From NCBI GenBank assembly GCA_903939735.1, contig CAJAIA010000035.1, positions 44,794 to 108,793 on the forward strand: DNA of 64,000 nucleotides, given 5' to 3'. Of the stretch, positions 932 through 8,258 are shown one piece after another. Source of the DNA: an uncultured Ignavibacteria bacterium (GTDB lineage: Bacteria > Bacteroidota > Ignavibacteria > Kapaibacteriales > Kapaibacteriaceae). A model generated the notes under the pieces. It searched no databases. It was not told the origin of the DNA and saw only the letters and a program-made list of their open reading frames with translations. Numbering within the stretch: the stretch's first letter is position 1; each line of letters begins with the position of its first letter. Made by a program: the position numbers and the translations under genes.

Positions 932-1552
932 TCAGATTGTGCCAAAGAGACGATCGCCTGCATCGCCCAACCCCGGCATAATGTAGCCTTGGTCGTTGAG
1001 CTGACGATCCAGTGCGCCACACACCAGCATAACATCGGGGTGATCTTCGGTGATCGTTGCAACACCCTCTGGCGACGCAATCAAGCAGGTCGCAATGATG
1101 CAGTGATGCGGAAGCTTCTTGAGCAGTGCAATCGTTGCCGTCATGCTTCCACCTGTTGCGAGCATCGGATCAATCACGATGAACGTCGTGTCTTCGTCGG
1201 ACGGTGGAAGATTGCGGTAATACTCATGGGGTGCCAGCGTTTCCTCATCGCGTTTGAGACCGATGAATCCAACCGAGGCCTCAGGGCAGATTGATAGGAA
1301 CGGATCAAGCAATCCTAATCCAGCGCGCAGAATCGGAACGATCACCACACCACCGCGAATCACCGAGCATGTCGTGGTCTCAAGCGGTGTCGTCACGTCG
1401 ATATCGCGCGAGGGAAGATGCTTTGATGTCTCGACGGCTAAATGCATGCCAATCCGATTGACAGCGGCACGAAACACATCGATCGGTGTCGATGTTGCAC
1501 GGATCGTTGCGAGATCTGTCGAAAGTGCTGTACCGGATAGGATGATAGCCAT
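932..1552 (-). CDS. upp: uracil phosphoribosyltransferase
   Basis: 206 aa; VIVPILRAGLGLLDPFL and FIVIDPMLATGGSMTATIALLK motifs, GLGDAGDRLFGT C-terminus. Confidence 0.95.
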   Translation of the reverse strand: MAIILSGTALSTDLATIRATSTPIDVFRAAVNRIGMHLAVETSKHLPSRDIDVTTPLETTTCSVIRGGVVIVPILRAGLGLLDPFLSICPEASVGFIGLKRDEETLAPHEYYRNLPPSDEDTTFIVIDPMLATGGSMTATIALLKKLPHHCIIATCLIASPEGVATITEDHPDVMLVCGALDRQLNDQGYIMPGLGDAGDRLFGTI

Positions 1553-1570: not shown

Positions 1571-3175
1571 TTAGAACTTCGGGAAGAACATAATCGACAA
1601 GCGTGGGATAGAATAGATCGTCGTTACATCGGCCTTATCGACAGAGACTTGCGATGGATTTGCTGGGTTGTAGTGAAGGAACACACCCGGACGATTTGGA
1701 TCCTCAGAGATGTACTGCTGATCCTCACCTGCAATCACAGGATAGCTGTTGATGATCGCGTCGCGCTGCGTTCCGAACATGAAGTTGAAGCGTACGTTCA
1801 CCATCGGATAGAACAAACCAATCGCTGTTGGAATGTTCACGCCGAGTCCCATACCAATGTTCATTCCTATTTGAGCATTCGACACCCGTCCATCTGACTG
1901 CGTCGCATAGGTTGCGCCGATTTGCGGGACGAAGTTGACCTTGTTGTAGGGATTCAGCGAGTAGAGCATTGTGCCTTCGATGATGCCCGTTTCGATCGGT
2001 GCCAGACCATACAGTTCGCGGTCGCCAACGTTCTTCGTGTAGATAAACGTACCCTCAAAGGCAATGCGCGTCGTAAGCTGATACATCAGTGTGCCACCAA
2101 AGCTGGCAAGTCCGTCGTAGGAGAACGAGCGTGACGGACCCTTCTCTTCCTCGAAGTTCTCCCAACGTTGCGGCGTGGTTGTACCCTGGATCGCACGGAA
2201 GTAGCGCTGACGATACGTCTGCTGCTCAACGACGGTGTTTGATCCTAACGTTACACCAATGCCCAACGTGCGGGGCTTCACATACTTTGCCCATCCAATC
2301 GAATCAAGCTCGTAGTTCTCGAGCGCAATCTCAAGGTCGATGTCATTCTCGTAGTCATCCTCGTTTGGACGTGTCGGTTGCGCAGTCGTTGCGAGCGTAC
2401 AGAGAACGACAGCTGTGAGGATTCCGAAGAAGCGACGAGCAGTAGCTGTTGTTGTGGTAATGATCTCTGACAGTGGCATACCTTTAATCTCCGCAAGTTT
2501 TTCCGCCACGAGGCGGACGTAAGATGGCTCGTTTCGTGTTCCGCGATGTGGAACGGGCGTCATGTATGGTGCATCCGTTTCGATCATAACACGGTCGAGC
2601 GGTACACGAAGCAGAACGTCGTTCAGTGTAGACTTCTTGAAGGTGATGTTGCCTGTAAACGACACATGAAGACCTAGGTCCATCGCTTGGTCGAGTACGG
2701 TAACGTCACCCGAGAAACAGTGGAGTACGCCACGAAGCGACCCGTCTTGTTCCTCGCGAAGAATCTCCATCACATCGCTATCCGATTCGCGATTGTGCAC
2801 GATAATGGGCAGGTTGTGCTGCTTCGCAATGCGGATTTGCTCACGAAAGTACAACTTCTGAACGTCGGGCGGACAGAAGTCGTAATAGTAGTCGAGACCT
2901 ATTTCACCGATAGCAACTACCTTCGGCTCTGTACACTGTGCGGCGATCTCCTCGAGATCCTGCTGCGTCATATCGCCTGCGTGATGCGGATGAATCCCAA
3001 CACCACGGTACAGATCTGGATGTGCATCAACGATTGCTTTGAGATGCGCACGACGAGAGCGCTCAATGTCTGGGACGATGATCGCCGTTACGCCCGCAGC
3101 GCGTGCGCGCTCGAGCATTGCGTCGCGATCCTCTTCGAAGTCCTTCACATCGATATGCGCATGCGTATCAATCAC
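1571..3175 (-). CDS. tatD: TatD family deoxyribonuclease fused in frame to an outer-membrane beta-barrel-like protein
   Basis: MIDTHAHIDVKDF...IGEIGLDYYYD...VHNRESDSDVMEIL...HCFSG...IETDAPYMTPVPHRG (TatD), then RRFFGILTAVVLCTLATTAQ (signal-like) and a barrel-like region ending FFPKF; GTG start. Confidence 0.85.
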   Translation of the reverse strand: MIDTHAHIDVKDFEEDRDAMLERARAAGVTAIIVPDIERSRRAHLKAIVDAHPDLYRGVGIHPHHAGDMTQQDLEEIAAQCTEPKVVAIGEIGLDYYYDFCPPDVQKLYFREQIRIAKQHNLPIIVHNRESDSDVMEILREEQDGSLRGVLHCFSGDVTVLDQAMDLGLHVSFTGNITFKKSTLNDVLLRVPLDRVMIETDAPYMTPVPHRGTRNEPSYVRLVAEKLAEIKGMPLSEIITTTTATARRFFGILTAVVLCTLATTAQPTRPNEDDYENDIDLEIALENYELDSIGWAKYVKPRTLGIGVTLGSNTVVEQQTYRQRYFRAIQGTTTPQRWENFEEEKGPSRSFSYDGLASFGGTLMYQLTTRIAFEGTFIYTKNVGDRELYGLAPIETGIIEGTMLYSLNPYNKVNFVPQIGATYATQSDGRVSNAQIGMNIGMGLGVNIPTAIGLFYPMVNVRFNFMFGTQRDAIINSYPVIAGEDQQYISEDPNRPGVFLHYNPANPSQVSVDKADVTTIYSIPRLSIMFFPKF

Positions 3176-3642
3176 GCGCCCAGCTCCGCGAGATCACTGA
3201 TGATTGCATCAACGTGTCCCGGAACCTTGACCTTCTCATACGTCTTCGCAATCACACCCTTTGGGTTGATGATGTACGTTGTGCGCTCTACACCCATGTA
3301 CTTGCGTCCGTACATCGACTTTTCTTTCCATGTATCGAACGCTTCGCAGATGGCGTGATCTTCATCCGACACGAGAGGAAAGTTGAGATCAAACTTCGTG
3401 ATGAACTTCTCGTGTGATGCAACACTGTCTGGGCTTACACCTACCACACGCACACCAAGCTTTGTGAGTCGCTTCATCGAGTCGCGGAAGTCACACGCCT
3501 CGGCGGTGCAGCCAGATGTTGCATCCTTCGGATAGAAGTACAGGACGGTCCATGCCCCCTTGCATTCCTTCGTTGAGAACGTACCGTTGCCATTAGTCGC
3601 CCCTGAAACCATGGGCGCCTTTGTTCCTTCTGCGAGTGCCAT
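3172..3642 (-). CDS. bcp: thioredoxin-dependent peroxiredoxin, BCP/PrxQ type
   Basis: YFYPKDATSGCTAEACDFRD active-site motif; GTGA overlap with downstream tatD. Confidence 0.93.
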   Translation of the reverse strand: MALAEGTKAPMVSGATNGNGTFSTKECKGAWTVLYFYPKDATSGCTAEACDFRDSMKRLTKLGVRVVGVSPDSVASHEKFITKFDLNFPLVSDEDHAICEAFDTWKEKSMYGRKYMGVERTTYIINPKGVIAKTYEKVKVPGHVDAIISDLAELGA

Positions 3643-3646
3643 ACGT

Positions 3647-5335
<1,689 letters not shown>

Positions 5336-5378: not shown

Positions 5379-8258
5379 ATGGGCAAACCCAACACCCTTC
5401 GAATTGTCCACCTTCTATGCACGCTTGTCCTTCTTGCAGGGGGCTTACATGCATCCGATGATGTTGTTGCGGTGCAGATTGGACGATCGACGTTCGATGT
5501 ACGTGCGTCGCATATCTACGTGCGGATGCGCTCTGCGCGTACACGCGTCGAGGCACAGAAGCTCCTGCCAGCACGGTACACTGTTGCCGAACCTCTTCTC
5601 GATGCAGCACGATCGGTACACTTTTCTTCATCAGCACAGCCTCGCGCTCCGCAGCCAATGGATCCAGCGATGCAGCTGCTATGGTCGAGCGAGGAGCAAC
5701 TGACACGCACATTTGCCGTGGAGATCCGCGGTATTGCACCACTCGCTGCAGTTCGTGAGCTAGCAACCAAGGCGCGCGAGCACGTTGAACTCGCCGAGCC
5801 CTGGTATGTCATGGAGCCACATGCGCTGCAACGCGTTCAGCCAAATGATCCGATGCAGAATGAGCAGCAGTATCTCGCTACGATTTCAGCGCTTGCAGGG
5901 TGGGAGGCATATAGCGGAGATACGTCGGTGGTTATCGCTATCTCCGACAACGGTGTGAGCCAACTACACGAGGATCTGCGTGGCAACATCGCGCGCAACT
6001 GGAGCGAGATCCCTGGCAACGAGATCGACGATGATGGCAATGGGTATGTCGACGATGCACTTGGGTACAACTTCGCAAGTGCTGCCGACGGTACACTGCC
6101 CGGAGAGACGACGAACAATGCGGCTGACGGACACGGAACGAAGGTGTCTGGACTTGCTGCAGCTGCGGCGAATAACGGCGTGGGCATCACCGGTATTGGA
6201 AATCGCTCCCGCTTCTTCCCGATGAAGGTGTCGGCAAATGGGTCATCGTCGATCATCTTCGGATATCAATCGTTGATCTATGCTGCTCAGCGCAAGTTCA
6301 GTGTGGTGAACACCAGCTGGGGTAGGGTAAAGCCGTTTTCAGCAATCGATCAATCGGTGATTGACTACTGTCGCGCGAACAATGTGCTTGTTGTTGCCTC
6401 TGCTGGCAACTACGGCTCTGGAGCGAGTGGAGATGGGTGGCGCTACATCAACTATCCGTCTGGCTATCATGGCGTGTTAGGCGTTGGCGAGACTGATAAG
6501 GACGACTACGTGCAGTCGTCATCTGGACTTGGTGGCAACGCGCAGGTGATGGCGCCCGGCTCACAGGCTCTCACTACAGAAGCTGGTGGTGGCTACACAA
6601 ACTTCAACGTCGAAGGCACGTCCTTTGCGTCACCAATTGTCGCGGGTGTTGCAGCACTTGTTCGTGGCAAGTACCCATCACTCACAACGGATCAGGTGAT
6701 CGGCGTGCTTCGTCGCACAGCCGATGACATTTCGTCGAAGAACAGCAACGTTGCGTCGCACCTGCCGGGACGTGTCAACATGCAACGAGCACTCACAACA
6801 GATCCGATGAGCCTGATGTCGTGTCGGATTGCATCGACACGTATTGTTGATCCCCTCACATCACGGACGACAGCGCGATATCGCTCGGGCGATTCAGTGT
6901 ATGTGGTTCTGACGATTGCGAATGATCTTCGTGCGATTGCTGGCGGAACGGCTCGACTGCGTGTGAGCGATGCTCTTGGATGGAGCGTACGTGTCGCGCA
7001 GGAGAGCGTGCAAATTGGAGCGATCACTTCTGGTGGACAGCGTGAAGTGTCATTCACGGTGTATCTCGATCAACTCACGCTGGATCTACCATGCATTCTT
7101 GCACTCGAGATTGAAGCAGGTGGTGAGCAAGATCGTGCGTTTGTGTATCTCCAACCGCCATCATCGATGACGACGTTTACGAATGGCGTTGTTGCAGTAT
7201 CGATGGGCGACGATGGTGCTGTTGGATACAACTCGGTGCTTGATGCCAAGCAGGGTGACGGATTTGGCTGGTTGACGCGCGGATATCAGCTGATGTCACC
7301 GAGTGGATTCTTCCTGACAGAGAACAATGCACGCTCGAGCACGGGATATGCAGATATGCCGCCGTATCGTTCGGACTTCGCTCCATCGAAGGTGTTTGTC
7401 GATCCACGCGCAAACGAAGGCGTAATGAATGATCCGGGTGCGTTATCACCAATTGGCATTGACATTCAGCAGACGGTGCGATTCCCTGATCTCCAGCAAC
7501 CAATTGTTGTGCTGAAGGTCAAGCTCACAAACACATCCGGACAAGAGCGGAGCAATGTTGGGTCGGGGTATTTCCTTGACTGGGATATCGGAAGCGATGC
7601 AGTGAACAACCGCGCACGCCTAGCGCCGGAAGCAATTCCGCAATCACTTACTGGACCAGGCAGTGCAGCCGAAGTATTCACCCGTGAAGGCTTTGATGTT
7701 ACCATCTGCCATGCCGTTGTGTCACAGTCGCCATCAGGCGTAGCTCAATCGGCGACCTTCCCGTACGCAGCATTCGTCAATGATCAGGATGGATTCTCCG
7801 TGACTGATCGTATTAGTATGCTCTCAAGCGGCACCACGATGCAGGCTGTAAACGCTGGTGATCTCTGCAGTGTGATCGGTATGAACTACCCTGGTACGCT
7901 GGCTAATGGTGCGTCCTACGAGTACACCGTGGTCATCACGCTCGGTGCTACTGCCAACGAGGCAACATCGCGCATGCGAGATGTGTTGCCAACTGCCGTT
8001 TCGGTGCAGGAGGATCTGGAAACCACAGGTGTGCGGGTGTATCCGAACCCGGCGCGCGACGTGGTCACCGTAGCATCGGAAGAACCGTTGACATCAATCA
8101 CGATCTTCGATGCAACAGGACGTGCGGTGTCGTATCATCGTGGTGATGGTCAACCATCGTATGTGCTATCGACAGCAAACCTTCCCACGGGTGTGTATGT
8201 ACTCTCGCTCCGCACGACTTCTTCGACAACGACATCGATGCTCAACATCGCACGTTGA
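5379..8258 (+). CDS. secreted S8 subtilisin-like serine peptidase with T9SS type A C-terminal sorting domain
   Basis: Signal peptide; catalytic motifs VVIAISDNGV, DGHGTKVSGLAA, GTSFASPIVAGVAAL; C-term VRVYPNPARDVVTV...LPTGVYVLSLRT. Confidence 0.9.
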   Translation: MGKPNTLRIVHLLCTLVLLAGGLHASDDVVAVQIGRSTFDVRASHIYVRMRSARTRVEAQKLLPARYTVAEPLLDAARSVHFSSSAQPRAPQPMDPAMQLLWSSEEQLTRTFAVEIRGIAPLAAVRELATKAREHVELAEPWYVMEPHALQRVQPNDPMQNEQQYLATISALAGWEAYSGDTSVVIAISDNGVSQLHEDLRGNIARNWSEIPGNEIDDDGNGYVDDALGYNFASAADGTLPGETTNNAADGHGTKVSGLAAAAANNGVGITGIGNRSRFFPMKVSANGSSSIIFGYQSLIYAAQRKFSVVNTSWGRVKPFSAIDQSVIDYCRANNVLVVASAGNYGSGASGDGWRYINYPSGYHGVLGVGETDKDDYVQSSSGLGGNAQVMAPGSQALTTEAGGGYTNFNVEGTSFASPIVAGVAALVRGKYPSLTTDQVIGVLRRTADDISSKNSNVASHLPGRVNMQRALTTDPMSLMSCRIASTRIVDPLTSRTTARYRSGDSVYVVLTIANDLRAIAGGTARLRVSDALGWSVRVAQESVQIGAITSGGQREVSFTVYLDQLTLDLPCILALEIEAGGEQDRAFVYLQPPSSMTTFTNGVVAVSMGDDGAVGYNSVLDAKQGDGFGWLTRGYQLMSPSGFFLTENNARSSTGYADMPPYRSDFAPSKVFVDPRANEGVMNDPGALSPIGIDIQQTVRFPDLQQPIVVLKVKLTNTSGQERSNVGSGYFLDWDIGSDAVNNRARLAPEAIPQSLTGPGSAAEVFTREGFDVTICHAVVSQSPSGVAQSATFPYAAFVNDQDGFSVTDRISMLSSGTTMQAVNAGDLCSVIGMNYPGTLANGASYEYTVVITLGATANEATSRMRDVLPTAVSVQEDLETTGVRVYPNPARDVVTVASEEPLTSITIFDATGRAVSYHRGDGQPSYVLSTANLPTGVYVLSLRTTSSTTTSMLNIAR

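Follow-up and report, generated by a model that had tools for sequence, protein, structure and literature searches.

We analysed a stretch of 64,000 nucleotides (hereafter the window, always meaning its full length) from an uncultured Ignavibacteria bacterium of the order Kapaibacteriales (contig CAJAIA010000035.1 of assembly GCA_903939735.1), and focused on a single open reading frame (ORF) at 1571..3175 that combines a TatD nuclease, a signal-like segment and an outer-membrane beta-barrel. It is encoded on the minus strand (a preliminary description of this DNA left the strand unstated), starts with GTG at 3175, stops at 1571 and specifies 534 aa in an uninterrupted frame. That description had read the ORF as a complete-looking TatD continuing into barrel-like sequence with no stop at the junction, and both the domain match and the open frame bear this out. 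All evidence presented here consists of sequence and predicted structure.

The first half of the ORF is a complete predicted TatD nuclease. Residues 2-251 (2423..3172, minus strand) match PF01026 over its full length (profile positions 1-253 of 253, E 5e-81), the protein scores above the cut-off of TIGR00010, and all of the metal ligands are in place (H5, H7, E91, H127, H152 and D201, in the order HxH, E, H, H, D), each of the six being conserved in 113-116 of 116 relatives. The AlphaFold2 (AF2) model of this half has a predicted local distance difference test score (pLDDT) of 94-98.

The frame then enters a predicted signal peptide, M233-A265 (2381..2479, minus strand), which like the other signal peptides in this study was called from hydrophobicity and cleavage site rather than from SignalP. 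Its n-region is the last TatD helix (residues 235-250), its h-region runs from 251, and a type I signal peptidase site is predicted between A265 and Q266. The remainder, Q266-F534 (1574..2380, minus strand), would be the mature outer-membrane barrel. Modelled by AF2 with 95 relatives, it folds with confidence (pLDDT 93, predicted template modelling score (pTM) 0.83) into an N-terminal helix (278-298) and long antiparallel strands, and its last residue is F534, in agreement with the barrel-like sequence ending in Phe that had been described. Foldseek placed the barrel model in the OmpA, OmpW, OprG, Ail and NspA class of the PDB with probability 1.00 and modest TM-scores of 0.3-0.4 by query length, while a sequence search of the PDB with the barrel profile returned no relative. 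PF13505 (OMP_b-brl) matched 31 of 95 barrel members weakly (E up to 0.05), the window's own barrel not among them. By its confident model, the downstream half has the fold of a small outer-membrane barrel. In the full-length model (pTM 0.53) the two confident domains are mutually unplaced, helix 235-250 is followed by helix 252-262, and the sole segment with pLDDT <50 is 261-266, around the predicted cleavage site.

Spread and ancestry of the fused frame

A TatD match was found in 120 of the 123 genomes of the order, and nearly all of these genes run in one frame into the barrel, with open frames mostly of about 450-590 aa. After de-duplication we aligned 115 distinct fused proteins from 10 families (we keep the family labels of the genome set used, f1 to f18); 114 come from the order, and the remaining one, L013, clusters with f16, a family outside the order. 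The same fused ORF is present in relatives at 96% and 91% identity, and families f16 and f18 of the same class have a like fusion with homologous barrels (hidden Markov model (HMM) scores of 71 bits in f16 and 16-22 bits in f18). Two f18 proteins (L235 and L260) have a long charged, coiled-coil-like linker rich in Q, R, E and K before the barrel, of a kind not seen in the other families.

All barrel-fusion TatDs form one clade (Shimodaira-Hasegawa-like approximate likelihood ratio test, SH-aLRT, 99), which holds when the trait's own alignment columns are left out, and this points to a single origin of the fusion. The ratio of nonsynonymous to synonymous substitution rates (dN/dS), calculated against the two nearest relatives, was 0.03-0.08 in both halves, indicating that each is under purifying selection.

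The preliminary description had proposed checking whether orthologs are fused or split. Fusion is the rule in almost all genomes of the order that could be read, and only G102, a genome 70% complete, is split: its TatD (L208) ends ...HFFDVK-stop between a peroxiredoxin and a uracil phosphoribosyltransferase gene, and its barrel (L209; HMM 179 bits) is a separate gene on a different contig and has a signal peptide of its own. In the draft genomes G018, G025, G044, G050, G058, G073 and G113 the search gave nothing, a short fragment, or a weak hit to an additional TatD-like gene. Two other origins were considered and rejected: a plasmid origin, since the plasmid search returned ordinary TatD matches only, and a wider origin in sister orders, where most of the long TatDs are fused to a radical SAM domain and not to a barrel.

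The candidate embedded start codon and its Shine-Dalgarno sequence

An internal ATG (M233; 2477..2479, minus strand) stands at the start of the last TatD helix and is preceded by GGAG at 2489..2492 with a 9-nt spacer, exactly as had been described from the letters alone. Initiation there would give a product of 302 aa, including a 33-residue signal peptide, with Q266 as the mature N-terminus; this refines the earlier proposal of a signal-peptide-like stretch, and the idea that the last TatD helix doubles as its N-region fits the data. To compare genes we numbered codons from the (L/F)F motif that closes TatD, its second residue, Phe, being -1. An in-frame ATG lies within -20..-2 in 107 of 115 fused genes versus 18 of 123 controls (11/66 unfused TatD genes of distant phyla, 4/17 unfused genes of the same phylum and 3/40 TatD-radical SAM fusions), the start of a control gene being taken as its first ATG and not as a verified start. 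The ATG is exactly at -10 in 62 of the 115 fused genes versus 2 of the 123 controls, and at -18 in 31 genes, the window among them. Within the window's family all 21 members have a start preceded by a Shine-Dalgarno (SD) sequence (20 ATG, 1 GTG). The f2 barrel fusions L139, L198, L207, L215, L218 and L219 lack the embedded ATG and keep the signal-like segment.

The SD sequence itself is concentrated at these codons. At least 4 consensus bases were found upstream of 87 of 107 candidate ATGs versus 152 of the 842 remaining in-frame ATGs in these genes (81% versus 18%). Aligned to AAGGAGGT, 74 of the 87 motifs share one register, with T8 seven nt before the start (50/57 for starts at -10 and 23/23 for starts at -18, versus 5/100 controls); the window's motif is in this register, as T8 would fall 7 nt from its ATG. 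Members of the window's family with a start at -16 (L095, L096 and L100) are outside the common register.

Synonymous codon choice carries the same signal. Where the ATG is at -10, the third base of codon -14 (which encodes E, K, Q or R) is G in 55 of 62 genes, compared with 14.8 expected from the synonymous usage of the same genes (z 12.3); together with the GTN codon that follows it makes nAGGTn, and the excess at every other codon of the stretch stays within z 2. Where the ATG is at -18, the bias shifts to codons -23 and -22 (GCG z 5.3, GAG z 4.0). Since the -18 class holds, besides the family of the window, two lineages of f6 that fall apart from that family in the tree, the sequences suggest that the SD motif was probably re-created more than once in the same register. 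At least two moves of the start lie on well-supported branches, and parsimony implies more. Local mRNA structure at the candidate start is also lower than in synonymous shuffles (z +0.78±0.09, n=87), versus -0.15±0.07 for other ATGs.

SD sequences are generally scarce in the phylum, most of whose genes have none (PMC9976891). Ordinary genes make modest use of them, with 43% versus a baseline of 18% in the relative G074 and 34-38% versus about 29-30% in the window, where the baselines come from 400 kb of G074 and from the window. Those 400 kb of G074 contain 1407 other in-frame ATGs, not one of which is preceded by AGGT at the spacing seen here.

Several observations weigh against internal initiation. 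SD-preceded ATGs are absent from some fused lineages (0/6 in f2, 0/1 in f3 and 0/3 in f10) and are missing in 8 of 9 genes of f7 and 5 of 8 of f4, so that the fusion can be kept without the internal start, which is not indispensable. The 16S tail of the window's genome is masked, although the anti-SD CACCTCC is present in the 16S tails of relatives, which speaks in favour. Moreover, the genomes are related and not independent samples, which means that the z-scores above overstate certainty. The best guard against the effect of kinship is that the motif was re-made in a fixed register after the start moved. On balance, the in-frame start and its ribosome-binding site appear conserved beyond chance, and internal initiation is strongly supported by these sequence patterns. 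The nested product would also make sense alone, as it consists of a signal-like segment and a confidently modelled barrel and has a stand-alone counterpart in G102.

Proposed expression, competing explanations and gene neighbourhood

We consider it likely, from the sequence comparisons, that the locus is an ancient same-frame nested gene with two primary products, a TatD-barrel precursor and a secreted barrel that has its own initiation site. Ribosomes starting at GTG 3175 would make the 534-aa precursor, and others, recruited by the embedded SD to ATG 2479 in the last TatD helix, would make the 302-aa pre-barrel, so that the same codons would be read as the last helix of an enzyme and as the signal peptide of the nested product. 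The latter would be exported by the Sec pathway, cut by signal peptidase I between A265 and Q266, and inserted into the outer membrane. Barrel output could in this way be set apart from TatD output. A residue A, S or G followed by Q occupies the predicted cleavage site in 105 of 115 fused proteins, and Q266 is at least 90% conserved. This agrees with the Q-rule described for signal peptides of Bacteroidetes, which holds for 77% of those in Ignavibacterium album (PMC5837995), and the rule appears to apply to the fused protein order-wide.

The nested start has to be weighed against an account in which translation yields the full-length protein alone and this is processed as a polyprotein, the internal segment being a cleavable signal anchor, TatD remaining cytoplasmic and signal peptidase I freeing the barrel. 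The 105 proteins just mentioned do have a hydrophobic segment in their interior with a type I site after it, the signal and an A-Q type of site are kept in f2, f7 and f10 genes without an SD-preceded ATG, and two f2 genes (L139 and L215) have no ATG, GTG or TTG anywhere in -20..-2. As the only route to the barrel, however, processing is unlikely, because it leaves unexplained the conserved ATG, the fixed-register SD and the reduced mRNA structure of most families. What these exceptional lineages suggest is that cutting of the full-length form probably occurs as well, in addition to cutting of the nested product by the same peptidase. The TatD released from the precursor would then keep a short hydrophobic tail, and internal initiation would supply barrel by a second route, tuned on its own.

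The remaining explanations fare worse. SD-like sequences have been proposed to act as ribosome pauses ahead of targeting signals, and the internal motif could be such an elongation pause, aiding membrane targeting without being a start site. We regard this as improbable, since a pause requires neither a Met nor a fixed distance to an ATG, and its motif would not shift along with the ATG. More doubtful still is a programmed frameshift near the TatD end, by which some ribosomes would finish TatD in another frame and release it free: half of the genes do have early +1-frame stops past the junction, but such stops are as frequent as in synonymous shuffles (+1, 0.50 versus 0.45; -1, 0.01 versus 0.02), and in most members of the window's family some 48 codons pass without one. 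A recent loss of the tatD stop in the window's genome, through a frameshift or an assembly error, is excluded by the conservation of the fusion across the order, the same frame being found in 115 distinct proteins of 10 families and in both the 96% and the 91% identical relatives. Of the three options in the preliminary description (a genuine fusion, a nested gene or an indel), the first two therefore stand, and jointly, as the frame is open everywhere and the ATG and SD are kept, and re-created when the start moves; the indel falls.

Extending the nested-gene reading to the whole order and to its entire history, we incline, by a small measure, to the view that the last TatD helix has throughout served as part of an enzyme fold, as a hidden ribosome-binding site and start, and as the N-region of an export signal, with the full-length form also cut as a polyprotein, so that one frame would supply the cytoplasm with a nuclease and the outer membrane with a barrel, the amount of each being set separately. 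A TatD stop codon would end the barrel too, which would make the arrangement hard to undo.

The ORF is flanked upstream by a bcp-like peroxiredoxin gene (3172..3690, minus strand), whose stop overlaps the GTG start of tatD by 4 nt, and downstream by a upp-like uracil phosphoribosyltransferase gene (932..1552, minus strand), both named by eye from their sequences. The peroxiredoxin neighbour is likewise present beside tatD in the split genome G102, and the upp-like neighbour recurs in L003 and in G102. Divergent from this dnaX-bcp-tatD-upp-like run is a subtilisin-like protease ORF (5379-8258 of the window, plus strand) with a C-terminal stretch that resembles a type IX secretion sorting domain.

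Comparison with known systems

If the proposed reading is true, the long TatD-hydrolase-like proteins of this order hide an outer-membrane protein, and one gene makes strong use of an SD although the majority of genes in its phylum have none (PMC9976891). The gene is also a clear and cheap test case for internal initiation and for signal-peptidase cutting behind a long cytoplasmic domain. Our literature search turned up neither a TatD-barrel fusion nor a conserved same-frame nested gene in which codons of a cytoplasmic enzyme also encode the signal that exports an unrelated membrane protein. Each of the two elements, an internal start and a fused precursor, is known by itself; their combination is what we found unreported in that search.

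The window protein shares the full profile and all metal ligands with ordinary TatD (PF01026, TIGR00010), but ordinary TatD closes at its LFxL motif (at about 252-287 aa in the controls), whereas the window's frame goes on into the barrel. The TatD-linked radical SAM fusions (TIGR04038) of sister orders in the same class likewise have a C-terminal partner on the same TatD family. That partner is a soluble CxxxCxxC enzyme domain with no signal peptide, the internal ATG is rare there, and these fusions fall outside the barrel-fusion TatD clade; the window protein has no match to a radical SAM domain with CxxxCxxC (TIGR04038). Such fusions occur in most sampled members of f12, f13, f17 and f21 (L229-L273; L233 scores 214 bits) and, also in frame, in the Thermodesulfovibrio sequences L066 and L067, making this domain a second, different C-terminal partner of the nuclease. 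With the small outer-membrane barrels (PF13505; OmpA/OmpW/OprG class) the window barrel shares the fold and a C-terminal aromatic residue; it differs from them in having no sequence relative in the PDB, and an acidic linker and an N-terminal helix of its own.

The cytochrome b/c1 gene fbcH of Bradyrhizobium encodes a fused precursor that is cut at an internal signal sequence. The TatD-barrel resembles it in that two proteins lie in one frame and would be parted at an internal signal sequence, and differs in that its first half is a soluble enzyme and that most members also have an embedded ribosome-binding site. The hbp35 gene of Porphyromonas gingivalis gives two products with different destinations from one frame by means of an internal AUG (PMC2907840), and pilB of Neisseria, as cited in that paper, likewise has an in-frame internal start. 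In the account given there, the short form of hbp35 or pilB loses the signal peptide and stays inside the cell, whereas the internal start of the TatD-barrel gene would create a signal peptide and send the short form out.
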